From: Rickettsiales bacterium
GTDB lineage: Bacteria > Pseudomonadota > Alphaproteobacteria > Rs-D84
DNA length: 50,711 nt
Reading direction: 5' to 3'
NCBI GenBank assembly: GCA_031260805.1
Contig: JAISKV010000009.1
Coordinates: 1-50,711 of the forward strand
Position numbers and translations under genes: made by a program. Below, piece by piece: positions 1 through 48,343 of the stretch; position 1 is the stretch's first letter; each line of letters begins with the position of its first letter. Below the pieces are notes generated by a model. It ran no database searches, had not been told where the DNA came from, and saw only the letters and a program-made list of their open reading frames with translations.

Positions 1-120
1 ACACTCTGTTTATTATAGCAGACAACGATAATTCTTAATTCTTATTTTTTAATTTTTAATTAAATCTGGTAAACCACCCCGTCGCTGCGCGCCACCCCTC
101 CAAGGGAGGGGAACTGGCCA
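1..120. repeat. Composite interspersed repeat, copy A
   Basis: Three blocks in order: a GACAAC block (ATTATAGCAGACAAC at 12-26), a heptamer array built on AATTCTT/AATTTTT (30-65), and a palindromic block (70-118) in which GGTGGTTTAC and CCCCTCC motifs appear in reverse orientation. Nearly the same arrangement recurs at 48231-48343, and variants recur at 28284-28400, 30457-30618 and 47797-47921. No reading frame worth calling lies in the first 185 bases. Confidence 0.85.
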
Positions 121-125
121 CTCTC

Positions 126-160
126 GCACCTTAAACCTCACACCTCACACCTTAAACCTT
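126..160. repeat. Heptamer array (TTAAACC/TCACACC words)
   Basis: About five 7-base words (TTAAACC, TCACACC, TCACACC, TTAAACC, TTAAAAA) lie between the palindromic block of composite repeat A and the gyrA terminator. Read on the minus strand this is the AGGTTTA/AGGTGTG family, the same family that flanks the palindromic block at 28286-28310 and 30458-30490. Confidence 0.8.
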
Positions 161-187
161 AAAAAACGCGGCGTCGCCGCGTTTTTT
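161..187 (-). terminator. Rho-independent terminator of gyrA
   Basis: A perfect GC-rich stem (ACGCGGC / GCCGCGT around a 2-base centre) is flanked by A6 and T6, so it would act in both directions. On the minus strand it overlaps the gyrA stop codon (186-188), leaving essentially no 3' untranslated region. Confidence 0.85.
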
Positions 188-2864
188 ACTCGTCTTCGCT
201 GGGTTCTTCCATTTCTATGCTTGTTGCGCTGATTACCCGTTCGTCTTCCGCCGTCTTGAACAGCGTGACACCTGCGGTTGCGCGCCCGGCGATTCTGATT
301 GATGCGACCGGCGTTCTGATAATTTTCCCGCCGTTCGTAACCATCATGACATCGCGGCCGTCGCCAACTGGGAAAGTTCCCGCGACCGCCGTATTTTTTC
401 CGCCCAGTTTGATTCCGGCAAAGCCCCCGCCGCCGCGGTGCGTTATACGATACTCGTACGCGCTGGTGCGCTTGCCGAACCCATTCTCGCTTACTGTCAG
501 TATGAACTGTTCCGCCGCTTCCAACTGGGCAAACCGTTCGTCTGTCAAGACCAGGTTCGTTGTTTCTTCATCCGCGTCCGCGCTGGCTTCTTCTTCCACG
601 CCGGTAAGCGCGCGGCGTTTCGCGCGGCTTTGTTTGATGTATGCGGCGCGTTCTTCGCTGGTTGCGGTTCCGTGATCCAGCATGGCCATGCTGATAATCC
701 TGTCATTTTCATCCAGCCGGATTCCGCGGATTCCATCAGACGCGCGGCCGGCAAACACGCGGATTTCCGGCACAGGGAATCGTATCACCCGGCCGTGCAG
801 CGTTGACAGCAGGACATCTTCGGATTCCATCGCCGGCAGCACTGATACCAGCGTGTCGCCGTCATCCAATTTCATCGCTATCTTGCCATTCGTGCGGATG
901 GACTCGAAATCATCCCACTTGTTGCGGCGCACATTTCCGGACGCGGTCGCGAACATCAGGTACCCGTCCTTGGTTTCCGGTTCCGGCAGAATCGCGGTTA
1001 TCGTTTCGCCGGCCGCCAATGGCAGCAAATTAATCAGCGGACGGCCCTTGGCTGCGGCCGCGCCCTCGGGCAGTTTATATGTTTTAAGGCGATAGCACAT
1101 GCCCAGAGAACTGAAAAACAGCAGCGGCGTATGCGTATTCGCGACGAACATCTGCACGACGAAATCGTCTTCCTTGGTCGTCATGGCATTGCGCCCCTTG
1201 CCGCCGCGCCGCTGCGCGCGGTAAGTATCCAGCGCGACCCGCTTGATGTATCCGGTATTGGAAATTGTAACGACCATGTCTTCGCGGGCGATTAAATCTT
1301 CCATATCCATATCCAGTTCGGAATCAGAGATTTCCGTCCGGCGGTCATGTCCAAAGTTTTCAATGATAAAGTTGGTTTCTTCCTTGATAATTTCAACTAT
1401 CCGTTCATGGCTGCCCAGGATTTCCAGCAAATTCTTGATAACCGCGCCCAATTCAACCAGATCGTTATGAATTTTCTCGCGTTCCAATCCTGTCAGTCTG
1501 TGCAGTTGCAGTTCCAAGATGGCTTTGGCTTGCTCCGCGCTCATATAAAACATTCCGGCTTCGTATGTGCAGTTCGGGTCTTCAATCAAATTGATATAGT
1601 TTTCTATATCCCCCGCGCGCCATCCGCGCGACACCAATGCGGTGCGCGCCGCCTCTGGATTTTCGGATTTTTTGATAAGTTCAATGACTTCGTCCAGATT
1701 GCCGACGGCGACCGACAGCCCCAGCAATGTATGCGCGCGGTTCCGCGCCTTGTTCAACTCAAAAATAGTCCGCCGGCGAATGACATCCGTTCTGAAATCA
1801 ATAAATGAATCCAGCACTTTTCGCACAGTGAACAACAGCGGGCGGCCGCGGTCCAACGCCATCATGTTGGACGCGAAACTGCTCTGCAATTCTGTGTATT
1901 GGAACAACTGGTTTAATACGACTTCCGGCACGGCGTCGCGTTTTAATTCAATAACAACGCGGACATCCTTGGCCGTTTCATCGCGGATTTCACCAATGCC
2001 TTCTATCCGTTTTTCTTTGGACAGTTCGGAAATTTTCGCAATCAGCGTCGCCTTGTTCACCTGGTATGGAATTTCATCAACGACGATAACCGCATGGTCT
2101 TTGGATTGCTCGAAATGAGTTTTGGAACGAATTATCATGCTGCCGCGGCCTGTGGTATGCGCGCGGAACGCCCCGCTGCGCCCCATGATGATTCCGCCGG
2201 TGGGAAAGTCCGGTCCGGGAATAAAATCAAACAACTGCTCGTCCGAAATTTCAGGATTATTAATGACAGCCAGCATGCTGCGGCATACTTCACGCAGATT
2301 GTACGGCGGCACATTAGTCGCCATTCCGACGGCGATGCCCTGGCCCCCATTAACCAGAAAGTTCGGGAATTTGACCGGCAGAACGCGCGGCTCGCGCAGG
2401 CTGTTGTCGTAATTGGGCTGCCAATCTATGGTATCCTTGTCAATGTCGTCCATCAGATACATGGCCAGTTTGGTCAATTTTGCCTCGGTATATCTGGCCG
2501 CGGCGGCTTTGTCCCCGTCCATTGATCCAAAGTTTCCCTGGCCGTTCACCAGGCATTCGCCCATGGAAAAGTCCTGGGCCAGGCGGACCATCGCCTCGTA
2601 TATTGAACTGTCCCCGTGCGGATGGTATTTACCCATGACTTCGCCGACAATTCGCGCCGACTTAATCGTGCTGCGCGTCGCAGGCGCCATGTCCCCCATG
2701 ACATACAGAATTCGTCTGTGCACAGGCTTGCACCCGTCGCGCGCATCCGGCAGGGCGCGTTCAACAATAACACTCATCGCATAGTTCAGAAACGATGTTT
2801 GCATTTCGGATTCAATCGCGGACTGCGGCACGGAAATCGGATTTATTTGATCATTTTCGTTCAT
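186..2864 (-). CDS. gyrA: DNA gyrase subunit A
   Basis: This is the breakage-reunion subunit of DNA gyrase, which with GyrB introduces negative supercoils. The 892-residue protein has the winged-helix/tower N-terminal domain with the catalytic tyrosine in AAAARYTE (Y125) and the HPHGDSSIYE quinolone-resistance region. The C-terminal beta-pinwheel carries the GyrA box QRRGGKG, which separates GyrA from ParC. In the quinolone region the residues equivalent to E. coli S83 and D87 are S86 and E90; Glu at the second site is usual in ParC and less so in GyrA. An acidic insert rich in E/A/D lies near residue 770, as in many alphaproteobacteria. The ATG at 2864 has an AAGGAA ribosome-binding site 8-9 bases upstream. 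The gene stands alone, divergent from rmuC. Confidence 0.97.
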   Translation of the reverse strand: MNENDQINPISVPQSAIESEMQTSFLNYAMSVIVERALPDARDGCKPVHRRILYVMGDMAPATRSTIKSARIVGEVMGKYHPHGDSSIYEAMVRLAQDFSMGECLVNGQGNFGSMDGDKAAAARYTEAKLTKLAMYLMDDIDKDTIDWQPNYDNSLREPRVLPVKFPNFLVNGGQGIAVGMATNVPPYNLREVCRSMLAVINNPEISDEQLFDFIPGPDFPTGGIIMGRSGAFRAHTTGRGSMIIRSKTHFEQSKDHAVIVVDEIPYQVNKATLIAKISELSKEKRIEGIGEIRDETAKDVRVVIELKRDAVPEVVLNQLFQYTELQSSFASNMMALDRGRPLLFTVRKVLDSFIDFRTDVIRRRTIFELNKARNRAHTLLGLSVAVGNLDEVIELIKKSENPEAARTALVSRGWRAGDIENYINLIEDPNCTYEAGMFYMSAEQAKAILELQLHRLTGLEREKIHNDLVELGAVIKNLLEILGSHERIVEIIKEETNFIIENFGHDRRTEISDSELDMDMEDLIAREDMVVTISNTGYIKRVALDTYRAQRRGGKGRNAMTTKEDDFVVQMFVANTHTPLLFFSSLGMCYRLKTYKLPEGAAAAKGRPLINLLPLAAGETITAILPEPETKDGYLMFATASGNVRRNKWDDFESIRTNGKIAMKLDDGDTLVSVLPAMESEDVLLSTLHGRVIRFPVPEIRVFAGRASDGIRGIRLDENDRIISMAMLDHGTATSEERAAYIKQSRAKRRALTGVEEEASADADEETTNLVLTDERFAQLEAAEQFILTVSENGFGKRTSAYEYRITHRGGGGFAGIKLGGKNTAVAGTFPVGDGRDVMMVTNGGKIIRTPVASIRIAGRATAGVTLFKTAEDERVISATSIEMEEPSEDE

Positions 2865-2891
2865 TATTTTTATTCCTTATATTGCCCGATA

Positions 2892-2921
2892 AACATAGCA
2901 AAAATCCGCATAATTGGTCAA
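2892..2921 (-). promoter_or_regulatory. Sigma-70 type promoter of gyrA
   Basis: On the minus strand TTGACC is followed by 18 bases and then TATGTT, about 30 bases before the gyrA start. The match is by eye and there is no transcript evidence. Confidence 0.5.
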
Positions 2922-2935
2922 GAAAAAAGCATTTC

Positions 2936-4058: not shown

Positions 4059-4554
4059 CCTGCAAATGCGGCTTGTCGGAGACTTGTCCCTGCGCGAAAC
4101 AGCGGCGCCAGTGGCAGATATCGCAGCGATTTCCGACGCCATGAATGACATGGTGAATATGATGAATGACCAGCGCGGTGTTGGACTGGCCGCGCCCCAG
4201 GTCGGGATTTTGCAGCGATTCTTGGTCATGCAGGATCCGGACACGCATGAAGTCTATAAAATCATCAACCCGAAAATAATCTCGTTTTCGGACAAGACCT
4301 GCAAAATGGAAGAAGGCTGTCTGTCGGTCGTTGATTCTGACGGCATTCCGATATTCGCCGATGTAGTGCGGCCCGACGGTGTTGTTATGGAATGGACGGA
4401 TGAAAACGGCGCAGCGCATTCGGCGAAGTTCATAAAAACTATGGCGCGAATCGTACAGCATGAATACGATCACTTGGACGGGAAATTATTTATTGACTAT
4501 CTGTCGCCGATAAAACGCGAACAGGTTATGAGAAAGGTAAAGAAAAGAAAGTGA
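4051..4554 (+). CDS. def: Peptide deformylase
   Basis: Removes the N-formyl group from nascent proteins. It is 167 residues when started at the ATG at 4051 (MNNLQMRLVGDLSLRE). An upstream in-frame ATG at 3937 would add a tail that only reads through rmuC, so it is rejected. All three deformylase motifs are present: GVGLAAPQVG (motif 1), EEGCLSV with the metal-ligand Cys (motif 2), and QHEYDHLDG with the HExxH-type metal and catalytic residues (motif 3). The start overlaps rmuC by 8 bases, so the genes are probably translationally coupled. fmt follows after a 105-base gap filled with an inverted hexamer repeat. The pairing with fmt is the classic one, because Fmt adds the formyl group that Def removes. 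Confidence 0.96.
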   Translation: MNNLQMRLVGDLSLRETAAPVADIAAISDAMNDMVNMMNDQRGVGLAAPQVGILQRFLVMQDPDTHEVYKIINPKIISFSDKTCKMEEGCLSVVDSDGIPIFADVVRPDGVVMEWTDENGAAHSAKFIKTMARIVQHEYDHLDGKLFIDYLSPIKREQVMRKVKKRK

Positions 4555-4652
4555 AGTTGTGGGTGAAAGTGTAGGTGAAGGTGAGGGTGTAGGTGTAAAT
4601 GCGTTTGTTGCGCTCACCTTCACTTACACCTACACCTTCACTAAAAAACGGA
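4551..4652. repeat. Inverted hexamer-array hairpin between def and fmt
   Basis: Left arm: GTGAAG/GTGTAG/GTGAGG-type hexamers (4551-4600). Right arm: the reverse-complement words CACCTT/CACTTA/CACCTA (4614-4641). The loop is AT-rich with a short GTTGCGCTC segment. The array begins inside the def stop codon and ends just before the fmt ribosome-binding site (CGGAG). The same hexamer family brackets 21320-21764 and 42837-43013, and stands alone at 45235-45262. Confidence 0.85.
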
Positions 4653-4659
4653 GTTTTTT

Positions 4660-10469: not shown

Positions 10470-12419
10470 ATGGAATCCATGGACAAATTGAACGATCGTC
10501 AGCAGGAAGCAGTTAAAACGACAGATGGCGCGGTTCTGGTGCTGTCCGGGGCCGGAACTGGGAAAACCACAGTCATAATTTCGCGCATCTCGCATATCTT
10601 GCAAACGGGTCTGGCGCGGCCTTGGGAAATTCTGGCCCTGACATTCACGAACAAGGCCGCGAACGAGATGAAGGAGCGGCTGCTGCCGTCGGTTTTTGAC
10701 TGGTGCGGGACTTTTCATTCAATCTGCCTTAAAATCCTGCGCCGGGAAAGCGAGCGCAAAAACTTTCTGGTATTCGGCGAGGATGAGCAAAAGGCGGTTC
10801 TGAAAACAGTTTTCGCGGCAATGAATCTGGATAACAAAGATTACGACCCGGGGACATGGGTTGAAAAAATAGCGTTGTTCAAGGATACCGGCCGTAAAAA
10901 TGACAGCAAAAAATTCAATGAAATTCTGGCGGCGTACAATGCAGAGTTGCAAAGGCTGAACGCGATTGATTTTGCCGATATCATTAATCATGCAAATGCT
11001 TTGCTGGCCGAAAATGCCGCGGTGCGCGAAAAATATCAAAAACAATTCAGATACATTCTGGTGGACGAGTTTCAGGATACAAATCCGCCGCAATATCAAT
11101 TGGTGAAAACTCTGGCGGCCGGATACGGCAATATCTGCTGCGTTGGCGACGATGACCAGAGCATTTATTCATGGCGCGGCGCGGAAATCCAAAATATTCT
11201 TAATTTTGAGAAGGATTTTCCGGGCGCCAAGATTGTCCGTCTGGAAATAAACTATCGCAGCACCGGGAATATTCTGCTGGCTGCGAACAAGTTGATAAAA
11301 AACAATAACGGGCGGCTGGGCAAGGAATTGCAGACAACCAGCGCGGCTGGAAATTTAATAAATATCCGCGGGTTTAATTCGGACCTGGAAGAATCATCGT
11401 ACATTGCCGACAATATTAGCGAGCCGAAAAACACTGCGATTCTGATACGCAGCGGATCGCTGTCAAAACGGTTCGAGGATGAATTTCTGCGCCGCGGCGT
11501 TTCATACAAACTGGTCGGCGCGCAAAAGTTCTATGACCGCATGGAAATCCGGGATGCGATTGCGTATATCCGCTTGCTGGTTTACCGCTTTGACGATTTG
11601 TCGTTGCTGCGGATTATCGGCAAGCCGCGGCGCGGATTCGGTGATAAAGCAATTGCGGACCTGCGCCGCGCCCGAATCCCATTGTTTGACGCGGTCATGG
11701 CGCATAAAAACGGCCCGTTGTTCACGGACGCGTTTGACTTTGATTGGCGCGAATTGCCGCCGGCGGCCGCTGCGTTAAAAATACTGGAAGATTCCGGGTA
11801 TATAAAATATTGGCAGGAGTCCAAGGATGACGCGGCCCCGGACCGGATAAAGAATATTCACGAATTGATAAACGGGACGATTGCGAAATACAACACTTTG
11901 CCGGAATTTATTGAAAACGCCAGCCTGATGATTGCGGACGATATCCAGGATGACGCCATGACGAAAGAAGCCGTTTCAATCATGACGATTCATGCGGCCA
12001 AGGGCCTTGAATTTGATACTGTGTTTCTGCCCGCGTGGGAAGAAGATATTTTTCCGAACAAGATGTCCGTGGAAGAAGGAAATTTGGAAGAGGAGCGCCG
12101 CCTGGCCTATGTCGCGATAACGCGGGCTCGCAAAAACCTGACCATTTCCCACGCGTACAGCCGCATGCAATACGGCCAGTTCCAGAACAACATGCCCAGC
12201 CGGTTTATCAGCGAACTGGGCGCAGGTATTAAAAGTGAAAAGTTAAAAGTGAAAAGTGAAAAAATAGGCAATACTCTGCCGCCGATGATTGGAAAAATGG
12301 TCCGGCACAATGAACTGGGCGACGGGGTTGTCATCGCGATTGATGAAAATATTCTGACAATCGCGTTCAAGAAAAGCGGAATTAAGAAAGTTGAGAAAAG
12401 TTTTATCACGCTTGCTTGA
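10470..12419 (+). CDS. uvrD: UvrD/PcrA-family superfamily 1 DNA helicase
   Basis: An ATP-dependent 3'-5' helicase of repair and replication restart. It is 649 residues from the ATG at 10470 (MESMDKLNDRQQEAV); 10479 is also possible, while the longer frame from 10242 runs through the dnaQ opposite strand and is rejected. Helicase motifs in order: Q motif LNDRQQEAV, Walker A GAGTGKTT (27-34), Ia LTFTNKAANEMKER, II LVDEFQDTN, III GDDDQSIYSWRGA, IV LEINYRS, V MTIHAAKGLEFDTVFLP, VI LAYVAITRARKNL. A Tudor-like C-terminal domain (VRHNELGDGVV) follows. It is shorter than PcrA (about 720). Between motif VI and the Tudor part, about 12 lysine/serine-rich residues are encoded by an AAAAGTG heptamer array. 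It overlaps comF by 29 bases. Confidence 0.92.
   Translation: MESMDKLNDRQQEAVKTTDGAVLVLSGAGTGKTTVIISRISHILQTGLARPWEILALTFTNKAANEMKERLLPSVFDWCGTFHSICLKILRRESERKNFLVFGEDEQKAVLKTVFAAMNLDNKDYDPGTWVEKIALFKDTGRKNDSKKFNEILAAYNAELQRLNAIDFADIINHANALLAENAAVREKYQKQFRYILVDEFQDTNPPQYQLVKTLAAGYGNICCVGDDDQSIYSWRGAEIQNILNFEKDFPGAKIVRLEINYRSTGNILLAANKLIKNNNGRLGKELQTTSAAGNLINIRGFNSDLEESSYIADNISEPKNTAILIRSGSLSKRFEDEFLRRGVSYKLVGAQKFYDRMEIRDAIAYIRLLVYRFDDLSLLRIIGKPRRGFGDKAIADLRRARIPLFDAVMAHKNGPLFTDAFDFDWRELPPAAAALKILEDSGYIKYWQESKDDAAPDRIKNIHELINGTIAKYNTLPEFIENASLMIADDIQDDAMTKEAVSIMTIHAAKGLEFDTVFLPAWEEDIFPNKMSVEEGNLEEERRLAYVAITRARKNLTISHAYSRMQYGQFQNNMPSRFISELGAGIKSEKLKVKSEKIGNTLPPMIGKMVRHNELGDGVVIAIDENILTIAFKKSGIKKVEKSFITLA
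12229..12263. repeat. Heptamer array inside uvrD
   Basis: Words AAAAGTG, AAAAGTT, AAAAGTG, AAAAGTG, AAAAAAT read in frame as residues about 587-598 (alternating K, S, E, L, V). They sit in the linker between the helicase core and the C-terminal Tudor-like domain. Confidence 0.85.
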
Positions 12420-16033: not shown

Positions 16034-16064
16034 AGATAAAAAATAGTTTTTAGTAAAAACTGAA

Positions 16065-16100
16065 ACCCGCAGGCGCAAAGGCTCTGCGGGTTGTTTTTTA
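16065..16100 (+). terminator. Terminator of valS
   Basis: Stem ACCCGCAG / CTGCGGGT with an 11-base loop is followed by TGTTTTTTATTTT. It lies between the convergent valS and the restriction endonuclease gene. Confidence 0.8.
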
Positions 16101-16144
16101 TTTTCATAATTTTTCTATGTCTGCAATATGTCTTTTTTCTGAAT

Positions 16145-16723: not shown

Positions 16724-16729
16724 ATTCCC

Positions 16730-17878: not shown

Positions 17879-17978
17879 GCTCCAATTTCCTGCTTTATAT
17901 CATACGAAATCTTGATAAAAAATACCAGCATTTTTATTTCTTGCCGGATAAAAAAGGACGAGAGCCGGCAGGGTATAA

Positions 17979-18006
17979 AAAAAAATCCGCCTGGGGCGGA
18001 TTTTTA
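17979..18006 (-). terminator. Terminator of the bamA operon
   Basis: The stem AATCCGCC / GGCGGATT with loop TGGG is flanked by A-runs and T-runs. On the minus strand it overlaps the bamA stop codon (18004-18006) and ends in T9, so lpxD-fabZ-lpxA, which often follow bamA, are not continued here. Confidence 0.85.
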
Positions 18007-20265
18007 GAACTGTGTCTCAAACGACAGCAGGAATCGCTGCTCGCGATCATACGGCTTTTTCGTAATCGGCCAGCCCCATGAAAAATTCATCGGACCCATC
18101 GGCGTATTCCAATAAACGCCGACGCCGGCCGCTGTGCGGATTGATTCGTCAATCTCGCTGGGGATGCCATAGAAATTATTTTCTTCCGCCGGCGGGCGGC
18201 CAAGAACGCCGTAATCCATAAATACAAAGCCCTTGACCTGATATTCGTCCGGGATAAATATTGGAAAGTTCAACTGCGTTGTGCCATTCAACTTCCACAG
18301 TCCGCCCAGCGCGTATGTCGGAAACAGTATATTGCGCGATCCGACGCCCGCGATATCAAATCCGCGCAAAGATTCCCCGCCCAAAAAGTACCGGTATACG
18401 CGCGCGATATATGTGTCGGCCGGCGCCTGAATCAATCCGAATTCCAGCGTTGATTTCAATTGCCAACGGTTGTCAAAAAAGTTCACCAATCCCGTAAAAT
18501 CAGCGTTGTACCGCATAAATTCATCCGTGCTGATTCCAAATCCTGTGTATGCGGCGCCAAAATTCGCAACGATTCCCGTATGCGTGTTTTGCTGAAAATC
18601 CGTATTCAGATTATAATAGCGGAAGTTCGTCCCCAGCGTATACAGGTTCGCATTCACCCAGCCCTTGTGAATGTCATAGTTCTGATCGTACGCCGCCGAC
18701 AAACGCAAAGATTGCGACCAGTGATCGGACCATGCCCAACCCAATCGTCCGCCGATTGACAATGAATCCCTGTCATACCCATAACTGCCCAGTCTGGAAT
18801 AGTTATACATCGTGTACGATATATCAAACCCGCCGGACAATGCGCGGCCGAACAGGTATGGTTCCGTGAAACTGAACAAAGCCTGTTTTTGATACTGGGC
18901 GATGCTGCCCTTGATCTGCACGATTTGTCCGCGGCCCATAAAATTGCTTTCCGTGATTCCGGCGTCAATCATGAATCCGTTGATGTTGGACCAGCCTAGC
19001 CCGCCAGACAATTCGCCGGTAGGCTGCTCTTCCACCTTGATATCCAGATTCATCAGGTCCGTTCCGGCAACGCGCGTCGGCACCATGTCAACGCTCTTGA
19101 AAAATCTGGTGCGCATCATCCGCTGGCGGCCTTCTTCAATCGTCTGCAATGAAAAAGGATCGCCGCTGCGCATCGGCGTCTGCATTTCAATAACGCTGTC
19201 AAATGTGCGCACATTGCCGAGTATGTTTATGGAATTCAGATAAACCCGATTCGTTTTCGCAATATTGAATTTTATCCCTATCGTGCGATCGCTGTCATTC
19301 TTGACCGGCACAGGTTCCACATTGATAAAGGCATACCCTTTTTCAGCAACCGCGCCGCGCAGATTGGAAATCGTTTTTTCAATCAAGTCCACATTGTAAA
19401 TGTCGCCGGCATCAAACGCGACCGCATCCTGCAAATCATCGTCGTCAATATCCGGGAAAGGATTGTCAATAGAAACCTGGCCGAATTTATAGCGCGGCCC
19501 TTCTTCCAAATCAAACACGACAGAATACCATTTGCGGTCATGCGTAAAAGAACCGGCGGCCGATTTTATCTTTACATCCGCATAGCCGTTGCGCAGATAA
19601 AACTGGCCCAGCATCTGCTGGTCATACTTTATGCGGTCTTCGTCATAAACATCAAACGATGCCATGAATTTCCACCATGCGTATTCGCGCGAAAGTATCG
19701 CATCGCGCAGAGTGCTGGCGCGGAACGCGTGATTCCCGGTAAAGTCAATGCTGTCTATGTATGTCGGATGACCCTCGGCAATCTCAAACACGACATTCAC
19801 GCGGCCGTCGTCCGTATTTATTTTTTGCGGATTCACTGTTGTTCCGAAAATTCCCTTGCGCTGGTACAGCGCCAGTATCCGCTGGACATCGCCGCCGATA
19901 ACCGATTCGTCGTATGTCCCGCGCGCAGCGGTCCGGATTTCTTTTTTCAGATCATCCGTGCTTATCTCGTCATTGCCCTCGGTCGTGACCATGGCGATTG
20001 TCGGCGCTTCCGCCACTTTTATTTGCAGCAGCGCGCCGTTTTGCGATACTGAAACATCGCTGAATAATGAAGACGCCTGCAACTGCTTTACAATCTGGTT
20101 TATCGCATTGCTGTCCGGATTGTCGCCAACCCGAACCCCCGCCAGCAAACGCACGGATTCCGCATCCATGCGCTGGTTGCCGATGACTTCAATGCGCGAA
20201 ACAACATTCGCGCAAAGTGAAGAGTGAAAAGTGAAAAGTGAAAATATCAGTAATATTTTTTTCAT
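18004..20265 (-). CDS. bamA: Outer membrane protein assembly factor BamA
   Basis: The central Omp85 protein of the BAM complex, which inserts beta-barrel proteins into the outer membrane. It has 753 residues: a signal peptide (residues 1-19, ending SSLCA), five POTRA domains (about 20-415; for example VVSRIEVIGNQRMDAESVR and RVYLNSINILGNVRT) and a 16-strand Omp85 barrel (about 430-753). The L6 loop motif is GVGSRN/LRGFDIAGVG (the VRGF equivalent is LRGF), and it ends RFLLSFETQF with the terminal Phe of barrel proteins. The signal peptide core is encoded by a TTTTCAC heptamer array. The ATG overlaps the rseP stop by 4 bases. The presence of BamA implies a Gram-negative envelope. Confidence 0.96.
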   Translation of the reverse strand: MKKILLIFSLFTFHSSLCANVVSRIEVIGNQRMDAESVRLLAGVRVGDNPDSNAINQIVKQLQASSLFSDVSVSQNGALLQIKVAEAPTIAMVTTEGNDEISTDDLKKEIRTAARGTYDESVIGGDVQRILALYQRKGIFGTTVNPQKINTDDGRVNVVFEIAEGHPTYIDSIDFTGNHAFRASTLRDAILSREYAWWKFMASFDVYDEDRIKYDQQMLGQFYLRNGYADVKIKSAAGSFTHDRKWYSVVFDLEEGPRYKFGQVSIDNPFPDIDDDDLQDAVAFDAGDIYNVDLIEKTISNLRGAVAEKGYAFINVEPVPVKNDSDRTIGIKFNIAKTNRVYLNSINILGNVRTFDSVIEMQTPMRSGDPFSLQTIEEGRQRMMRTRFFKSVDMVPTRVAGTDLMNLDIKVEEQPTGELSGGLGWSNINGFMIDAGITESNFMGRGQIVQIKGSIAQYQKQALFSFTEPYLFGRALSGGFDISYTMYNYSRLGSYGYDRDSLSIGGRLGWAWSDHWSQSLRLSAAYDQNYDIHKGWVNANLYTLGTNFRYYNLNTDFQQNTHTGIVANFGAAYTGFGISTDEFMRYNADFTGLVNFFDNRWQLKSTLEFGLIQAPADTYIARVYRYFLGGESLRGFDIAGVGSRNILFPTYALGGLWKLNGTTQLNFPIFIPDEYQVKGFVFMDYGVLGRPPAEENNFYGIPSEIDESIRTAAGVGVYWNTPMGPMNFSWGWPITKKPYDREQRFLLSFETQF
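20212..20247. repeat. Heptamer array encoding the BamA signal-peptide core
   Basis: On the minus strand the words are TTTTCAC, TTTTCAC, TTTTCAC, TCTTCAC, TTTGCGC, giving F/S/L/T/H residues 7-18. The same word (as AAAAGTG on the other strand) is used inside uvrD and in intergenic arrays at 28366-28400 and 30552-30590. Confidence 0.9.
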
Positions 20266-21314
20266 AACTTAAATACCCGTGCGATGTCGTTCCACATGGT
20301 CAGTACGAAAATAGCGCCGATCAAGATCCATCCGCCGACCAGAATCCGCTCCATCATTTTGCCCTGCAACCGGCGCCGAATCACGCTTTCCGTACCCAGT
20401 ATTAATAAATATCCGCCATCCAGCACCGGCAGCGGCAGCAGATTCACTATCCCCAAATTCACAGACAGCAGCGCGATGATTGACAGCAATGCGAATATCC
20501 CGGCCGACAATGCCTGGCCGGAAACCTGGGCGATTGTTATAAAACTGCCCAACTGCTTTGACGACCGTTCGCCCGTGATTATTTGTTTCAGCACGACGAC
20601 CAGCGTTTTTGACTGCACCCAGACTTCCCGCGCGCCGGACCATGCGGCCTGGACTATATTTTTCCGCTGCTGGAAAGTCTTGGTCCCGTCCGCAACCATG
20701 CCCCATCTGTCCGCCGGTTCCAGTTGGACTGTAATCAGTTTTTCCCCGCGCAACAGAATTACCGTCGCGTCATCGCCGCCGGCCAAATCCTTGGCAATAA
20801 CCAATTCGCCCCAATTGCCTATCTTTTCGCCATCAATGCGCAGCACCCGGTCCCCCGCCCGAACCCCGGCGTTGTATGCGGCCGAATCACGAATAACCTG
20901 GCCCACCACCGGCGATTGAATCTGCCGCTCTTTCACCACAAACATCGTCGTGTATATCGCCCACGCCAATATAAAATTCATCGCGACGCCGGCGACCAGA
21001 ATCAAAGCCTGCTTCCAACCGCTGACCGACAGATAATGCCCGCGCTTTTGCGCCGCGGTCATTTTATTGTACTTCGCGCGGTCAAACATGTCTTCCTGGC
21101 CGTACAATTGACAATATCCGCCGAACGGAACCCAGCCCAGCCGCCATTCGCATCCGCGTTTGTCCTTCCAGCGCAGAACAGGCTTGAACCCGATGGCAAA
21201 AGCCTCTACCCGGACGCCGGACGCGCGCGCAGCCAGATAATGGCCCAGTTCGTGCACAAACACGACCATCCCCAGAACAATTATCAATGCAATTATGGTT
21301 AAGATTATATTCAT
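20262..21314 (-). CDS. rseP: RseP-type site-2 zinc metalloprotease
   Basis: An intramembrane protease of the RseP/S2P family that cleaves anti-sigma factors or remnant signal peptides within the membrane. It has 350 residues. The zinc motif HELGH (21-25) is in the first transmembrane helix, GVRVEAFAIGFKP follows, and one PDZ domain (about 125-200, GQVIRDSAAYNAGVRAGDRVL) is visible. The third zinc ligand is in LLPLPVLDGG (about residue 298). E. coli RseP has two PDZ domains and about 450 residues; the single-PDZ form is common in alphaproteobacteria. Its ATG overlaps the stop of the four-helix-bundle gene by 4 bases, and its stop overlaps bamA. Confidence 0.93.
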   Translation of the reverse strand: MNIILTIIALIIVLGMVVFVHELGHYLAARASGVRVEAFAIGFKPVLRWKDKRGCEWRLGWVPFGGYCQLYGQEDMFDRAKYNKMTAAQKRGHYLSVSGWKQALILVAGVAMNFILAWAIYTTMFVVKERQIQSPVVGQVIRDSAAYNAGVRAGDRVLRIDGEKIGNWGELVIAKDLAGGDDATVILLRGEKLITVQLEPADRWGMVADGTKTFQQRKNIVQAAWSGAREVWVQSKTLVVVLKQIITGERSSKQLGSFITIAQVSGQALSAGIFALLSIIALLSVNLGIVNLLPLPVLDGGYLLILGTESVIRRRLQGKMMERILVGGWILIGAIFVLTMWNDIARVFKL

Positions 21315-21700
21315 AGTTTATCTCTTTGTGTAGGTGCAGGTGTAGGTGTATGGCCAAGACTATTTATTAAGCCTGTTAACATTCTGCAAATTTTATTAAG
21401 TTGATCTGTCAGCCTGATATAAGTTTCATTATCAATAAAACCTAGTTTATGCGATATTTTCATCTGACATCTTAATTCTGCCGCCGATCCCTTGGATATG
21501 CCTACAAAATGCCTGTATTCGTTAGATGTGTTTCTTGATGCGCCTTCTGCCAAATTAGAAGTTATTGATACCACCGCTCGTTTCATCTGCGATACCAACC
21601 CAAACATTTCACTTTTTGGGAATGTATCCATAATTTTATATACATCAACTGCGGTATCTATACCAAGATTATAAACATCTAAATCTTCAACTGATTTCAT
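21311..21700 (-). CDS. Four-helix-bundle protein (23S rRNA intervening-sequence / S23 type)
   Basis: A 129-residue protein from the ATG at 21700 (MKSVEDLDVYNLGIDTAVDV). The pattern of an N-terminal helix, FPKSEMFGLVSQMKRAVVSI, TSNLAEGASRNTSNEYRHF, GSAAELRCQM and YIRLTDQLNKICRMLTGLI is diagnostic of the S23/IVS four-helix-bundle family. These are usually encoded within intervening sequences in 23S rRNA, with relatives acting as accessory factors of diversity-generating retroelements. Here it sits between cdsA and rseP, where dxr is normal. The last 15 or so residues (HTPTPAPTQ region) are encoded by the flanking hexamer repeat, and the stop overlaps the rseP start as ATGA. A longer start at 21796 would only translate the repeat (GVGESVGESEG) and is rejected. 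The function is unknown; RNA binding is suggested by the family. Confidence 0.88.
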   Translation of the reverse strand: MKSVEDLDVYNLGIDTAVDVYKIMDTFPKSEMFGLVSQMKRAVVSITSNLAEGASRNTSNEYRHFVGISKGSAAELRCQMKISHKLGFIDNETYIRLTDQLNKICRMLTGLINSLGHTPTPAPTQRDKL

Positions 21701-21764
21701 ACCCACACCTTCACCTACACCTTCACTTTCACCTACACTTTCACCTACACCTACAACACCATCA
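21320..21764. mobile_element. IVS-like element: S23-type gene between inverted hexamer arrays
   Basis: The left array GTGTAG/GTGCAG (21325-21352) and the right array CACCTA/CACCTT/CACTTT (21703-21764) are in inverted orientation and complementary, so the RNA could fold with the four-helix-bundle ORF in the loop. This mirrors the stem-loop plan of 23S rRNA intervening sequences. The cdsA stop codon lies within the right array and the rseP ribosome-binding site starts at the end of the left one. That it is mobile is inferred from this arrangement; no transposase is encoded. Confidence 0.55.
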
Positions 21765-22419
21765 CCAGCCATGTTATCGGCAGAACGAAAATCCACCCGT
21801 CAAAGCGATCCAGCGCGCCGCCGTGTCCAGGCAGAATATTGCTGTAATCTTTAATCCCCAATTTTCTTTTTATCGCGGATGCCGCCAGATCCCCGTACTG
21901 CGACAACAATGAAACGCTGATTCCAATCCACATCAATTGCGGCATGAATTGGGCGTACGCCAAATGCCCCGCTTGCAAAGCGGTGCCGATGTACCCGTAC
22001 AAGACCGCGCCAAGCGTTCCGCATACAATTCCCGCAACCTGTCCCGACCAAGTCTTGCCCGGGCTGACCGACGGCCACATTTTTTCGCCGCCAAAGAATT
22101 TTCCGAAAAACCACGCGCCGATGTCTGCAAAACTTATCGTCATCAACAGCAGCAGGATTATCCAAGGCCGTGTCCCGACCATGTATGCGGAAACAATAAA
22201 GATCAAAGAATAAAGAATAAAAAGCATCAGTTGCCGGCCATTTATTCTTTTATCTTTATTCTTTATTATTTTCCATATCAGTTCTGCGCTGCAAACCACG
22301 GCGACCACCGCGCACAGCCAGCGCACCGCCGGCGCGCCAAAGTATTCGGCAATAACCGCCCCCGCGCCAACCAAGACCATAACGCCGGCCGTCAGAATTC
22401 TTTTAATCGTTTCGCTCAT
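21751..22419 (-). CDS. cdsA: Phosphatidate cytidylyltransferase
   Basis: Makes CDP-diacylglycerol from phosphatidate and CTP, the branch point of phospholipid synthesis, in the inner membrane. It has 222 residues from the ATG at 22419 (MSETIKRILTAG); the upstream frame reads through uppS. It has about 6-7 transmembrane helices. The family signature SAIKRKLGIKDYSNILPGHGG, continuing into LDRFDG, is complete. It is shorter than E. coli CdsA (285). Residues about 48-74 (KIIKNKDKRINGRQ then LMLFILYSLIFIV) are encoded by two heptamer arrays in inverted orientation, so a cytoplasmic loop and the following helix are partly repeat-made. The start overlaps uppS (ATGA). Confidence 0.94.
   Translation of the reverse strand: MSETIKRILTAGVMVLVGAGAVIAEYFGAPAVRWLCAVVAVVCSAELIWKIIKNKDKRINGRQLMLFILYSLIFIVSAYMVGTRPWIILLLLMTISFADIGAWFFGKFFGGEKMWPSVSPGKTWSGQVAGIVCGTLGAVLYGYIGTALQAGHLAYAQFMPQLMWIGISVSLLSQYGDLAASAIKRKLGIKDYSNILPGHGGALDRFDGWIFVLPITWLVMVL
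22199..22277. repeat. Inverted pair of heptamer arrays inside cdsA
   Basis: Left part AAGAATA words (22199-22228) and right part TTATTCT/TTTATCT words (22243-22277), separated by about 15 bases. The pair is complementary, so the cdsA mRNA itself could form a long hairpin, and both arms stay open in the cdsA frame. Confidence 0.8.
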
Positions 22420-23439: not shown

Positions 23440-23552
23440 CTAGTTATTAGTTGTTAGTTATTAATTATTATACCATTGTGCGCGCCGCGACAATTCCGCC
23501 ACCACAAACAAAAGTATAATAACTAAAAATTAATAACTAATAATTAATTATT
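23440..23552. repeat. Inverted heptamer arrays (TTAGTTA / TAACTAA)
   Basis: Left arm TTAGTTA, TTAGTTG, TTAGTTA, TTAATTA (23442-23472). Right arm TAACTAA, TTAATAACTAATAATTAATTA (23517-23549). The loop is about 45 bases. It fills the whole gap between the lipoprotein and the first VirB8-like gene. Confidence 0.85.
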
Positions 23553-28458: not shown

Positions 28459-30429
28459 GTGAGAGAGATGAAGAGCAGATTATTCATTATTCATTATTCA
28501 TTATTAATTGCGTTTGCGGCATCAGACGCATTTGCTGCCATTAATGCGCCGGTGGTGCCCAAGGGCTTTGGCGATAATTTGACCAGTTTCAGCGGAAACA
28601 TGGGAGCGATTAACAATAATCAATGGAATAATTCAATAAACGGATACAGCGGCGCGGCAACCGGGCCGACTGCGAACTTTGGGAATTGTAATGCGGCGGT
28701 CATGCGGTGCGCGACGCCAAAGTGCGCGAACGGCGGCTGCACGGATATGGCGGTCGCGACGCCTATTGCCGCGGGATGCGTCCAGGTCACGGAAACTTGC
28801 GCCCAGCATGGCGACCCGCTGGTCCAGATGATTGCTGGCCAACTGGTGGCGAATTCAACGGCCAAGTCAAATGCGGCGAATGCTGCGGCGGCTGCCGCCG
28901 CGGGCGAGCAGAGCGCGGAGCAAATGGCTGCGATGCAGATGCAAATGCAGCAGATGCAGTCCCAGATGCAACAGCAGCAGGCGGAATCCGCTGCGCGTCT
29001 GGAACAGGCTTTGGAACAAAGCAGGGCAGAAGCGGCCGCAAACGCGGCGGCGATGCAATCGGCCGCGGCCGCGCAGTCCGCTGCGGCGACTCAATCCGCG
29101 CCGATGCAATCGGCGGATCAGATTGCAAGCGCCAGCGGCGTTTCAGCCGAAGTATTAATGCGCAACCAGGCATCCGGCGAAATATTGTCTAAATTGGAAA
29201 ATGTAACGGACGCGCTGGCGAATCTGAAAAAAAGAATGAATGATGTGTTTGCCTATGCTGGCTGCGATGACTTTGGAAACAACTGCACCGGGCCGAAACG
29301 CGTGGCCAAGTTCAAGGAAATGGCGAACGGATTTTTCACGCCGTACGAGCAGGTGCTGGAAGAAGCATACGACGCGCTGTCATACGCGCAGATTTTGGGC
29401 GTGGACCTGTCCGATATTTATATGTTCTTGTCGGATTCCTGCAACCAGTGGGGCCAGTTCATGTGCCAAGCCGGGGCTTCATTGTACGGGAATGATTGCG
29501 CGTGCAAGGCAGGGGCTAAACCGGCGGCCGGACAATCGGGATGCGCGTGCGAAGGGAAAAATCCACGATGCAAATTGCTGAAAGCATATTCTCTGAACGA
29601 TACGGACGCGGTGTACCAGGAATGGCTGTGGCCGGAAAAACAACAAAAAGAATGGGTGAAACAAACAGTATCAAAACCAATTTATGCCGCAGATGGAATA
29701 ACAATTGAAAGATATCAGGATGTTGTTGAAAATGTTCAGGTTGAAAATTGGAAAACTTCCGGTCATATAGAGGTTGGATGCGCGTCTGATGCGATTGAAA
29801 CTATTGGTATTTTCAAGAATCTGAAAAAGAAATCCAAGATAGATCCGGAAGTCCTGCAAATGATAATAAGTCAGGACGGGACGCCGCAGACAAAACAAGG
29901 CGTGTTTAATAAAGATGCGACATTGAAAAATTGCTTTACACACGATGGGAATACGCGAACGCAGGTTGATATTGATATCCTGCAACAATTGGTCGGAACC
30001 AAGTCATTGCCGCGCAATATTTGCCTGTCCGCGCGCAATACCGTCGCAGCGACCCAGTTGGTCGGCATGGCGTCCGGCACTTGGTGCGAAGAAACCGGCG
30101 GAACATGGGAAGCAGGACAGATTCATGTAGAGAATAAATGCAAATGTCCTGTAAATTCAAGTGCAAACTTGCTGGATGATGAAAATAAAATAGATTATAA
30201 ATGCAAATGTGAAACAGGTCGCATTATGGTCAACAACCAATGCATGAATGACAATGAATTTGCGGTATATATGGCAAACTATGTAGAATTGGGCAACGCG
30301 TCAACCAAAGATCAAATCCAGGCGTGCGCAGAAACTGCGAGACGGGCGCGAGATGATGGAAATACAGATTCAAGTGTGTTTACAGATTGTGTGAAGAAAA
30401 TCTCTGGAATGAATGAATATGGTAATTAA
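28459..30429 (+). CDS. Second large cysteine-rich exported protein
   Basis: 656 residues (653 if started at the ATG at 28468). The signal peptide MKSRLFIIHYSLLIAFAASDAFA has a heptamer-encoded core. Then come a Gly/Asn-rich segment, a cysteine cluster (NCNAAVMRCATPKCANGGC), and a long Ala/Gln/Met coiled-coil or low-complexity region (about 135-225). Next is a helical domain (SKLENVTDALANLKKRMNDV) with a cysteine-rich stretch (CNQWGQFMC...CACKAGAKPA...CACEGKNPRCK). The end has EGF-like pieces (CKCPVNSS, CKCETGRIMVNNQC). No named family was recognised. It shares style with the protein at 6427-8664, and probably both belong to a lineage-specific set of disulphide-rich envelope proteins. A terminator follows. 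Confidence 0.75.
   Translation: MREMKSRLFIIHYSLLIAFAASDAFAAINAPVVPKGFGDNLTSFSGNMGAINNNQWNNSINGYSGAATGPTANFGNCNAAVMRCATPKCANGGCTDMAVATPIAAGCVQVTETCAQHGDPLVQMIAGQLVANSTAKSNAANAAAAAAAGEQSAEQMAAMQMQMQQMQSQMQQQQAESAARLEQALEQSRAEAAANAAAMQSAAAAQSAAATQSAPMQSADQIASASGVSAEVLMRNQASGEILSKLENVTDALANLKKRMNDVFAYAGCDDFGNNCTGPKRVAKFKEMANGFFTPYEQVLEEAYDALSYAQILGVDLSDIYMFLSDSCNQWGQFMCQAGASLYGNDCACKAGAKPAAGQSGCACEGKNPRCKLLKAYSLNDTDAVYQEWLWPEKQQKEWVKQTVSKPIYAADGITIERYQDVVENVQVENWKTSGHIEVGCASDAIETIGIFKNLKKKSKIDPEVLQMIISQDGTPQTKQGVFNKDATLKNCFTHDGNTRTQVDIDILQQLVGTKSLPRNICLSARNTVAATQLVGMASGTWCEETGGTWEAGQIHVENKCKCPVNSSANLLDDENKIDYKCKCETGRIMVNNQCMNDNEFAVYMANYVELGNASTKDQIQACAETARRARDDGNTDSSVFTDCVKKISGMNEYGN
28480..28512. 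repeat. Heptamer array encoding a signal-peptide core
   Basis: Words TTATTCA, TTATTCA, TTATTCA, TTATTAA, TTGCGTT encode I/H/Y/S/L residues 8-18 of the cysteine-rich protein. The same words form the intergenic arrays around 34944-34966 and 39147-39290. Confidence 0.9.
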
Positions 30430-30760: not shown

Positions 30761-30792
30761 AACTGAACTCTGTACTCTGAACTCTGAAAACT
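30761..30792. repeat. Heptamer array (GAACTCT words)
   Basis: CTGAACT, CTGTACT, CTGAACT, CTGAAAA words just before the rpoC terminator; the same family as the hairpins at 40357-40424 and 40521-40571. Only one arm is present here. Confidence 0.85.
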
Positions 30793-39146: not shown

Positions 39147-39290
39147 CGCAAATAGTGAATAATGAATAGTGAATAATGAATAATGTTTGCGCTCGCTTTG
39201 CTCGCAGCAATATTATTTATTATTTTTTATTCTTTCTTCACTTTTGCTTGCTGAACAACTATTCATTGTTCATTATTCATTATTCATTAA
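39147..39290. repeat. Inverted heptamer arrays between rplL and rpoB
   Basis: Left arm: GTGAATA/ATGAATA words (39150-39184). Right arm: TTCATTG/TTCATTA words (39259-39289). The middle contains GCGCTCGC and further TTATTTT words. The arms are complementary over about 30 bases. The 189-base gap between rplL and rpoB contains nothing else except the hairpin at 39289-39324. Confidence 0.88.
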
Positions 39291-39681: not shown

Positions 39682-39698
39682 TTATTACTCCGTAATAA
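39682..39698 (-). promoter_or_regulatory. Ribosome-binding-site hairpin of rplL
   Basis: A 7-base stem TTATTAC / GTAATAA closes on GGA, so the Shine-Dalgarno GGAG is in the loop, 7 bases before the ATG. An identical copy precedes rplK at 41690-41706. Confidence 0.55.
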
Positions 39699-39829
39699 TT
39701 AAGAATTAAGAATCCGGAATTTAAGAATTATTTCTTAAATCAAAGATTAAAATTCATTGTTGTTTTGCAAGAACCAAGATAAGAACCAAGAACAAAAATT
39801 CTTAATCCTTAATTATTGATTCTTAATTT
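39694..39829. repeat. Inverted heptamer arrays between rplJ and rplL
   Basis: Left arm: AATTAAG/GAATTAAG words (39694-39731). Right arm: TTCTTAA words (39797-39829). Between them is an AAGAACC/AAGATAA word array (39767-39792). The arms are complementary. The whole rplJ-rplL gap is made of this. Confidence 0.85.
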
Positions 39830-40317: not shown

Positions 40318-40520
40318 TTTGTTTTTTTATCCGGTGCTTCCACCGGGGCTCTTTTGAGTGTTCAGTTTTCAGAGTTCAGAGTTCAGTATTTTTACCGAAC
40401 TCTGAACTCTGCAAACTGAACACTGTTATTCTGTCCCAAAAGAGCAATCTCTTTTGTCTATGACGGCTTTGTTTTTTAAGGGTTTCCCCGCCATCAGTCT
40501 CGGACAAGAATCTTTTGCAG
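40318..40520 (-). promoter_or_regulatory. Probable L10 (rplJ) leader, interrupted by a heptamer hairpin
   Basis: On the minus strand the region has TCCGAGACTGATGGCGGGG, then AAAGCCGTCATAGAC, then the pair GCTCTTTTG (40437-40445 strand-reversed) and CAAAAGAGC (40348-40356 reversed), and a CCGGTGGAAGCACCGG hairpin before rplJ. The 9-base pair closes exactly around the heptamer hairpin at 40357-40424. Position and general layout match the autoregulatory L10 leader, but a covariance-model search would be needed to be sure. Confidence 0.45.
40357..40424. repeat. Heptamer hairpin 1 in the rplJ leader
   Basis: AGTGTTCAG, TTTTCAGAGTTCAGAGTTCAG, loop TATTTTTAC, then the complementary GAACTCTGAACTCTG words and CTGAACACT. 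The arms of about 29 bases are almost fully complementary. Confidence 0.9.
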
Positions 40521-40571
40521 CGTGCAGTTTTCAGAGTTCGGTAAAAATACTGAACTCTGAAAACTGGACGC
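40521..40571. repeat. Heptamer hairpin 2 between rplA and the rplJ leader
   Basis: Same family as hairpin 1 but in the opposite orientation: the loop GTAAAAATAC is the reverse complement of hairpin 1's GTATTTTTAC. Each arm is one heptamer shorter. It abuts the rplA stop codon (40572). Confidence 0.9.
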
Positions 40572-42623: not shown

Positions 42624-42836
42624 AAAACTTTTTACCTAATGTTTTCAACACCAAACCTGTCCGTCTTTGTTCGCCAGGGGCGAATGCGACACTGGCAAAA
42701 CTTCCATTTTTGCCGAAAAACCGCGAAAATTCAACCAATTCTTGCCACAAGTTCGTTCAGTTTAACACAATTTTTTATAAAATCAAGCGCAAATATTATA
42801 TATTTTTATCCCGCCCAGCGCAAGGGGAAAGTAGTT

Positions 42837-43013
42837 TAAGTGCAGGTGAAGGTGAAAGTGTAGGTGTAGGTGGAGATGAAAGTTAAATGCGTCGTCATTC
42901 AAGCACCGAACAACACCCCGTCGTCATCCCAGCCTGCGCGGGAATGACGACAGGAGATGGCCTTCACCTTCACCTACACCTACACTTTCACCTTCACCTA
43001 CACTTTTTTCGCT
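42837..43013. repeat. Nested repeat: hexamer hairpin with a GTCATCCC palindrome in its loop
   Basis: Left arm: GTGCAG/GTGAAG/GTGAAA/GTGTAG hexamers (42840-42880). Right arm: CACCTT/CACCTA/CACTTT hexamers (42961-43005). Within the loop lies CGTCGTCATCCC ... GGGAATGACGACA (42919-42952), a short member of the CATCGTCA family. The 447-base gap between tRNA-Trp and the virB8 gene contains this element. Otherwise there is only AT-rich DNA that probably includes the tRNA-secE promoter (a TTGATT...TAAACT match at 42759-42786 on the minus strand, weak). Confidence 0.85.
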
Positions 43014-47563: not shown

Positions 47564-47587
47564 ACGCGGCGAATGCCGCGTCATATC

Positions 47588-47660: not shown

Positions 47661-47704
47661 ATAATAATGAGTCCTGAATAATAAATTCCAAACCCGAATT
47701 TCCC

Positions 47705-47733: not shown

Positions 47734-47739
47734 AAAAAC

Positions 47740-47773
47740 CAAGTCGCCCGCGCCAAATGCGGGTGTTTTTTTA
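47740..47773 (+). ncRNA. Possible tiny transcript ending in a terminator hairpin
   Basis: Downstream of the orphan promoter, the stem CCCGC / GCGGG (47747-47763) is followed by TG and T7 (47766-47772). A transcript would be only about 33 bases long. It may be a short regulatory RNA, or the remnant of a unit whose gene was replaced by the repeats that follow. Confidence 0.3.
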
Positions 47774-47796
47774 TACCACTACCCCCGTCTTGCGCT

Positions 47797-47921
47797 ACGC
47801 GGCCAGTTCCCCTCACATGGAGGGTTGGTGCGTAGCACCGGGATGGTTTACAGGATTTATGATTTATGAAGTATGATTTAAGTATGAGATGAATCACAGT
47901 TGTCTTATTATAGCAGACAAC
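47797..47921. repeat. Composite interspersed repeat, copy D
   Basis: Palindromic block GCGGCCAGTTCCCCTC ... GGATGGTTTACAGG (47799-47853), heptamers ATTTATG, ATTTATG, AAGTATG, ATTTAAG (47854-47885), then the GACAAC block, here a clean inverted repeat GTTGTCT / AGACAAC (47899-47921) around TATTATAGC. It uses a heptamer word different from the other copies. Confidence 0.85.
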
Positions 47922-47950
47922 ATTAATTTATCCCCAGAATTTTCAGAGTT

Positions 47951-47984
47951 TTAATGTATAGCATACTAGTATGCTATACATTAA
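47951..47984. repeat. Perfect 34-base palindrome
   Basis: TTAATGTATAGCATACT followed by its exact reverse complement, with no loop (centre ACTAGT). Perfect dyads of this size usually mark operators or recombinase/resolvase sites, or cruciform-prone repeats. No regulator or recombinase gene is within the window near it. Confidence 0.9.
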
Positions 47985-48037
47985 TTCAATAATAAAAGAA
48001 CTAAAAAAGTTCCATCCTTAAATCATAAATCTTGAAG

Positions 48038-48165
48038 ACCCCACCCCGGAAAATTCTGACGAATTTTCTGACCCGCTACTGCGGGGCGGGTAGGAAACTC
48101 CGAACCAAATTACCCGCCCCCTGAGAGCGGGTCGGAAAATTCGTAAGAATTTTACGGGGTGGGGT
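48038..48165. repeat. Long inverted repeat with 55-base arms
   Basis: The left arm (48038-48092) begins ACCCCACCCCG and contains GAAAATTCTGACGAATTTTC; the right arm (48111-48165) is its reverse complement with roughly nine mismatches; the loop is 18 bases (48093-48110). Each arm also contains the small palindrome AAAATTC...GAATTTT. MITE-like in form; no coding capacity. Confidence 0.88.
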
Positions 48166-48230
48166 CGCAGAGCGGCTTTGCCGCGATGCGTGGCAGTAGT
48201 ATAATTAAGAATTATAAAATTATGTCTTAT

Positions 48231-48343
48231 GCTCTGTTTATTATAGCAGACAACGATAATTTTTAATTCTTCTTTCTTAATTCTTAATTAAACTCTGTAA
48301 ACCACCCCGGCCTTCGGCCACCCCTCCATGGGAGGGGAACTGG
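48231..48343. repeat. Composite interspersed repeat, copy E
   Basis: Near-duplicate of copy A at the window's left end: GCTCTGTTTATTATAGC and AGACAACGATAAT, then AATTCTT/TTCTTAA heptamers (48255-48292), then the palindromic block from GTAAACCACCCC to CCCCTCC ... GGAGGGGAACTGG (48297-48343). Confidence 0.88.

Follow-up and report, generated by a model that had tools for sequence, protein, structure and literature searches.

For decades, tandem repeats of heptamers have been seen in the genomes of bacteria, and a source for them has been lacking. Here, we describe such arrays in a 50,711-nucleotide stretch of a Rickettsiales bacterium genome (the window; contig JAISKV010000009.1 of assembly GCA_031260805.1), where they most likely form the inverted termini of small mobile elements, dispersed through the genome and built on genes for the 23S rRNA-intervening sequence protein (IVP, also named S23p). 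The IVP/S23p family ("four helix bundle protein") is common, and we know of no function for it; linking it to the heptamer repeats provides a testable explanation for both. The window is contig 9 of a source genome of 729,005 bases in 15 contigs, 93.5% complete and with a GC content of 50.8%, whose RpoB is 72-74% identical to those of metagenome-assembled alphaproteobacterial genomes from termite and ruminant guts, several of them named Candidatus Enterousia. In what follows, C, G and L with a number denote contigs of this genome, genomes and stretches of sequence, respectively.

Among described systems, the 23S rRNA intervening sequence (IVS) of the S23p type, found in Coxiella burnetii and Leptospira, likewise holds an S23p gene between terminal inverted repeats. 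The Coxiella IVS has an S23p open reading frame (ORF), a 28-bp terminal stem and, upstream of the ORF, 3-4 GACAGAT heptamers whose copy number varies among strains, and it is excised by RNase III (PMC4990558). In contrast to these IVSs, the sites described here are outside 23S rRNA, in spacers of protein-coding genes and within a protein linker, while most copies are short and geneless, with arms that form dispersed families. Since all five IVP genes of the source genome sit among protein genes, we do not file these elements as IVSs.

Heptamers without S23p have also been described. The GGGAATC repeats of Xanthomonas have a period of 7 and a mode of four units, are degenerate (GGGANTN), lie 89-93% between genes and include 70-75 convergent pairs; in the excerpts of the source concerned, these repeats and the Nostoc GGGGAYT repeats are described as one dominant, G-quadruplex-forming word, and no link to IVP appears (PMC4692102). 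Xanthomonas campestris also encodes the IVP of PDB entry 2gsc. The TAACTGA repeats of Beggiatoaceae, cyanobacteria and Bacteroidetes occur sporadically, in 2-6 copies between genes, and, unlike the arrays reported here, are mostly direct, use one word and have been read as binding sites of a translational regulator (PMC4679880). Repetitive extragenic palindromic sequences and miniature inverted-repeat transposable elements (REP/MITE) are, like most copies here, short, non-coding, palindromic, dispersed and intergenic. The present arms differ from theirs in being phased 7-nt repeats that match the arms of IVP genes, with no Y1 transposase of the REP-associated (RAYT) type; the IVP genes share ends with the short elements as a partner transposase would, although no catalytic role of IVP is known. 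Among 5.39 million open-access full texts, S23p and heptameric repeats appear together in a single paper, which concerns one Coxiella element, a prior description in subscription papers or preprints being possible, and we found no open-access text that joins the Coxiella IVS, the Xanthomonas repeats and the TAACTGA repeats as one phenomenon.

The IVP gene of the window and its two arms are arranged as follows, arrays having been detected with Tandem Repeats Finder (TRF) and a lag-identity scan in which lags 5, 8, 10, 11 and 13 served as controls.

21311..21700, minus strand: IVP/S23p gene, encoding a 129-aa four-helix-bundle protein (Pfam PF05635, TIGR02436, PDB 2gsc, AlphaFold2 model)
21328..21350: 3' arm of the IVP element, a hexamer array reading GTGTAG on the plus strand (TRF, lag scan)
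21698..21767: 5' arm of the IVP element, a hexamer array inverted with respect to 21328-21350 (TRF, lag scan)

The 3' end of the gene runs through the hexamer array, which encodes HTPTPAPTQ. Its product matches PF05635 (E 2e-34, 118 bits; cut-off 33.8), TIGR02436 (E 3e-33, 114 bits; cut-off 24) and 2gsc (E 1e-17), and the AlphaFold2 monomer model (pLDDT 94.9) is a four-helix bundle that superposes on 2gsc with a template-modelling (TM) score of 0.94-0.96 and also matches 2rld. Both 2gsc and 2rld contain five chains, and the X. campestris S23p is a homopentamer (PMC4990558). The fold is shared with Avd of diversity-generating retroelements (4dwl, TMt 0.87, identity only 9-10%), whose profile the window protein matches weakly; Avd, however, is the partner of a reverse transcriptase, an enzyme that does not track IVP here.

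These genes and the arrays were linked by comparison with relatives. Orthologous stretches of G002 and G014, 75-79% identical, expose two elements, each an ORF between inverted heptamers, and both ORFs encode IVPs (E 2e-35 and 4e-28). Insertion polymorphism is seen at L155 of G002, where a segment at about 4405-4890, comprising an IVP gene and TAGTGNN arms, is wholly missing from the orthologous G014 site. An IVP search of 40 relatives was positive in 14 genomes, all in this family, with 12 copies in G002, 8 in G012, 6 in G004 and 5 in the source genome; G028 carries 3. IVP copy number and array density, the latter taken from stretches of 12-220 kb per genome and from the whole source genome, are correlated across 30 genomes (Spearman 0.87, p 3e-10) and within the family (0.84, p 3e-6). 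At the 37 distinct IVP loci of the family, lag-7 arrays flank both sides in 18 cases and lag-6 arrays in 3. Elements built in this way also occur in other genera of the family, but their words differ: G002 has AGATANN (once with dinucleotide variants that are identical between the two arms), G028 has AAGGCAT and AGAGCAT, and G012 has AATTAGC and AATGAAC. G002 holds 92 lag-7 arrays in 193 kb against 0-1 per control lag, and no lag-7 array was found in 16 genomes from other families of the order and class (12-20 kb each).

The association extends across bacterial groups. We pooled 80 IVP loci from Pseudomonadota, Cyanobacteria and Gemmatimonadota, selected by best profile score rather than by balanced sampling and including some close kin; lag-7 arrays reach 5.25 and 6.01 per kb within 100 nt of the domain and fall to 0.0-0.25 per kb beyond 250 nt, a more than 20-fold drop, while no lag-5 or lag-10 array occurs near an IVP gene in the set. 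At 32 of the 34 two-sided loci, the words are inverted and match to within one base, compared with a mean of 2.2 and a maximum of 7 matches when downstream arms were permuted among loci (500 permutations). Arrays on both sides were present at 12 of 29 Pseudomonadota loci and 6 of 15 plasmid or phage loci. IVP genes with such flanks are carried by plasmids of Nostoc, Pseudanabaena, Geminocystis, Calothrix and Azospirillum, and the IVP gene of a Gemmatirosa plasmid has octamer arrays. The likeness to cyanobacterial heptamer repeats that the earlier note had drawn is borne out: the Nostoc, Pseudanabaena, Geminocystis and other cyanobacterial plasmids carry IVP with inverted heptamers. The present arrays, which that note took to be unusually diverse, do not stand independently and are not peculiar to this genome, the same arrangement being present there and in other Pseudomonadota. 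A word-specific count points the same way: GTAGGCA, the word of an alphaproteobacterial IVP, has 15-64 matches in the four of 11 alphaproteobacterial genomes whose IVP carries it, 19 in G169 and 0-3 in each of the remaining six (overlapping matches inside one array tallied separately), and the reversed pattern has none in the 11.

On cyanobacterial plasmids, some IVP genes are flanked by two genes of linked function, namely nrdB/nrdA in Nostoc edaphicum (L309), cas6/cas4 in Pseudanabaena (L311) and cas10/cmr3 in Picosynechococcus (L316). The Pseudanabaena array (L311) has 14 copies and that at L284 of G007 more than 20, so copy number is not capped everywhere.

Within the source genome, the arrays far exceed chance. 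Allowing mismatches, 198 segments reach a lag-7 score of at least 12, against 7, 7, 6, 4 and 5 at lags 5, 8, 10, 11 and 13, the signals at lags 14 and 21 being harmonics; exact runs of at least 10 bases number 119 at lag 7 and 7-15 at the control lags. TRF and the lag scan confirm the arrays of the earlier note, 25 lag-7 arrays in the window scoring at least 10. The arrays are in this respect heptameric short tandemly repeated repetitive (STRR) sequences, or long simple sequence repeats. Gene prediction with a simple caller yielded 644 genes and a coding share of 84%, and 163 of the 198 arrays fall in the intergenic 16%. Canonical words number 38. That the word differs from site to site holds to this extent, but a few families dominate, and many loci have array variants and conserved cores in common. 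Contrary to what had been stated, periods other than 7 occur: GTGNAG hexamer arrays, of which the genome has 14 (the reversed motif has one match), form the arms of three window elements at 4545-4645, 21326-21767 and 42833-43006.

In all 34 inverted pairs of the genome, the left (5') arm has more G than C and the right (3') arm more C than G, a polarity that recurs in G002 (16:1), G028 (14:4) and a pooled set of relatives (9:1). Word matching pairs 67 of 210 arrays with an inverted copy and just 2 with a direct copy. The description of the arrays as mostly inverted pairs was nevertheless too strong, as an antiparallel partner lies within 250 nt of 74 of the 163 intergenic arrays and the rest have none that is detectable. 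Three families stand out: A (AACTAAT), which at a dozen loci has arms of about 30 nt round a core that is conserved and about 40 nt long, and B (AAGAATT) and C (AAACCTY), each with its own core. As a general signature of such elements the family A core was rejected, with 12 copies here and single, background-level hits in nine other genomes. The IVP genes of the source genome carry the same words: the one on C13 has that of family A, that on C1 has that of family C, that on C5 has AAACTCT, and that of the window has the hexamer. Overall, the words of 75 of the 163 intergenic arrays differ by at most one base from that of a resident IVP (shuffled mean 26, 95th percentile 59). The paired elements of the window are listed below, with folding z scores relative to shuffled sequences.

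23441..23552: short, putatively non-autonomous family A element (AACTAAT) with heptamer arms and conserved core CCGCCACCACAAACAAAAG (z -6.8)
39151..39289: inverted heptamer pair AATARTG / CATTATT between rplL and rpoB (z -7.8)
39693..39828: degenerate inverted heptamer pair (TAAGAAT) between rplJ and rplL (z -4.0)
40357..40424: hairpin with 2-4 GTTCAGA copies per arm (word AACTCTG), adjoining rplJ (z -17.6)
40521..40571: shortened copy of the 40357..40424 hairpin with its loop inverted (GGTAAAAATA versus TATTTTTACC) (z -8.9)
4545..4645: short hairpin with hexamer arms (GTGNAG), the word of the window IVP
42833..43006: hexamer-armed hairpin with the word of the window IVP and mirrored variants in both arms (z -10.8)

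The first five are the hairpins that the earlier note had named, and they do fold far better than their shuffles. The family A element at 23441..23552 shares not only its arms with the IVP element at C13:25410-25718 but also the subterminal motifs, TATACC after the left arm and AGTATAATAAC before the right one, as do short family A elements in general. Short hairpins that share ends with a resident IVP element in this way look like its non-autonomous derivatives. A tblastn search of long-gap inverted pairs without IVP recovered no degraded IVP gene, and some of these pairs are neighbouring short elements. Nested in the core of the 42833..43006 hairpin is a GC-rich palindrome, CGTCATCC...GGGAATGACG.

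These observations suggest the following organization. A full element of about 0.4-0.5 kb would consist of a 5' arm of some 4-5 G-bearing heptamers, an IVP/S23p gene and a reverse-complement 3' arm, whereas most copies, of about 50-150 bp, would be derivatives reduced to arms and a small core, and solitary arrays would be remnants or single arms. With a separate word for each IVP lineage, a repeatedly invaded genome comes to carry many. We propose that IVP binds its own arms with one 7-nt box per subunit of the pentamer; five boxes would span 4x7+5 = 33 nt (for a 5-nt box), a length close to the array mode. The arm may be bound as single-stranded RNA or DNA, since on either strand, when transcribed, the first arm is always the G-rich one. 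Elements could persist between genes with their hairpins either tolerated or, by analogy with the Coxiella IVS, processed by RNase III, and transposition chemistry probably uses host enzymes. This IVP-element reading predicts the sites of new copies and explains why the word varies while the spacing is constant.

Several points weigh against it. Comparison of sites with 75-79% nucleotide identity shows no clear target-site duplication, IVP has no known catalytic domain, and the subterminal motifs common to short and full elements were spotted by eye and not by a statistical search. No antiparallel partner is detectable within 250 nt for 89 of the 163 intergenic arrays, and about half of the arrays have words that lack a resident IVP; most simply, these orphan words are relics of earlier invasions, or else the corresponding IVP is encoded in the ~6% of the genome that the assembly lacks. 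The correspondence is also imperfect elsewhere, since G016 has a few arrays and no IVP, G011 and G020 have IVP and no array in the sampled stretch, IVP loci such as L285, L293 and L304 lack an array on either side, and so do those of the faecal phage-labelled records L322 and L323 (MT835815, MT835590). As for the boxes, the arrays have 4.77 invariant columns, only slightly above the random 4.35 and thus weak support for fixed boxes, and arrays beyond the source genome can far exceed five units, in conflict with a strict five-box rule.

Alternatively, IVP could be a regulator that binds RNA or DNA, with the heptamer hairpins as the dispersed operators of its regulon rather than element ends. 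The arrays are indeed intergenic and often no more than 20 nt from a start or stop (median distance 40 nt to a gene 3' end and 69 nt to a 5' end), the short elements bear the IVP's word, and Avd, its structural relative, acts in a ribonucleoprotein. A regulon, however, is hard to reconcile with spacers that hold sites more often when convergent (24/66) than when divergent (12/88; 78/281 for tandem), with a site inside a protein linker, with orthologous sites that are not conserved, with an IVP number and word that differ between relatives, or with conserved cores that spread as units, and we regard it as improbable. At about the same low level we place a mechanism within the IVP-element explanation, in which the hairpin RNA would be reverse-transcribed for movement and IVP would play the part that Avd plays next to a reverse transcriptase of the diversity-generating type. 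The structural relationship to Avd and the weak profile match speak for it, as does a 350-aa reverse transcriptase (RVT_1) encoded at C12:145-1197; across the family, however, RVT_1 occurs in 10 of 18 IVP-positive and 8 of 18 IVP-negative genomes by hand count, which is no co-occurrence, and G010, 97% complete, has IVP and arrays without an RVT_1 hit. The reverse transcriptase, present and yet unassociated with IVP, was therefore rejected as the mobiliser. Its gene on C12 lies at the contig end beside a family B array, and family members have similar ones independently of IVP.

Less probable still are ordinary REP/MITE elements moved by a conventional transposase, with IVP as a passenger or a sharer of site preference; short, palindromic, dispersed, intergenic copies in lineage-specific families are what they would look like, as the short elements do, but the genome has no Y1 transposase (PF01797; among transposases, the search covered Y1 alone), IVP genes of several phyla are each bordered on either side by a matching word of their own, and IVP is the one gene family recognised inside such arms. 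As to polymerase slippage, Mrazek et al. 2007, as reported in PMC4679880 and in the excerpts of PMC4692102, proposed that 7 nt corresponds to the polymerase footprint. Heptamers arising and expanding in this manner, with coincidental hairpins, are the least likely source: period 7 does dominate simple repeats in several bacterial genomes and adjacent elements differ by whole heptamers, so slippage happens, but intergenic array length rises to a single peak at 28-36 nt and drops sharply beyond 36 nt where control lags decay, a shape that slippage alone is not predicted to give, conserved cores recur at a dozen loci, and slippage predicts neither the 34/34 polarity, the inverted word match and the IVP association nor the near absence of arrays in IVP-free relatives, and on length distribution, polarity and IVP association it was rejected as the main cause.

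Two further candidates were discarded. Stop codons in all frames were set aside as the function of the words, because AT-rich words hold stops by chance. An assembly artefact is unlikely and was rejected, as the arrays are short (31 nt would be short for typical assembly k-mers, the assembler not being known) and independent assemblies, among them plasmids that were deposited as complete, show the same architecture.

More broadly, and tentatively, bacterial heptamer repeats in general, including cyanobacterial STRRs, Xanthomonas GGGAATC and Beggiatoaceae TAACTGA, might be the ends of one widespread transposase-less element class, in which a pentameric IVP ring would wrap the first, G-rich arm of the transcript or single strand of its own element, each subunit taking one 7-nt box, and the bound hairpin would be copied to new sites by host enzymes. 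The word would then be free to change as IVP co-evolves with its arms, while the ring would set the spacing. TRAP, which wraps NAG triplets, offers a parallel. The ring-and-box idea, if true, would be a new way to mark element ends, and the presence of the same arrangement in distant bacterial groups offers an answer on the origin of bacterial heptamer repeats.

The remaining arrays of the window are listed below; arrays in coding sequence are few, the UvrD linker being an example.

29..61: contig-end array of family B (AAGAATT), also present at C12:29-61
128..163: solitary family C array (ACCT boxes, AAACCTT), with the word of the IVP at C1:1647-1949
12231..12262, plus strand: AAAAGTG array in the hypervariable linker of a UvrD/PcrA-like gene, encoding KSEKLKVKSEK
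20216..20244: solitary AAAAGTG-family array upstream of a bamA-like gene
24872..24897: solitary AAAAGAT-family array
28479..28509: AATAATG-family array
30763..30788: solitary AACTCTG-family array
48257..48289: family B array (AAGAATT) with a variant pattern like those at C14:9726 and C15:24147

In relatives G012 (L222) and G003 (L217), the UvrD linker holds differing insert-like segments, as if tolerant of element insertion. The genome also contains large GC-rich palindromes without heptamers (TACCACTACCCCG..., CTGTAAACCACCCCGG...), at C2:30733-30900, C11:10534-10663, C11:36001-36138 and C12:159518-159618, which form further dispersed families and in some cases abut heptamer arms or are nested with them. 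A palindromic repeat with CGTCATTCCCGCGCAGGCGGGAATCC is likewise dispersed (C3:14237-14419, C12:150583-150717, C3:631-759), and a variant of it is nested in the window element at 42833-43006. Besides, the window has a low-GC island (36%) at 16001-18000 with an Eco57I-type methylase-like gene, and, at 45266-47563, a VirB10-like type IV secretion protein is encoded in this reduced genome.

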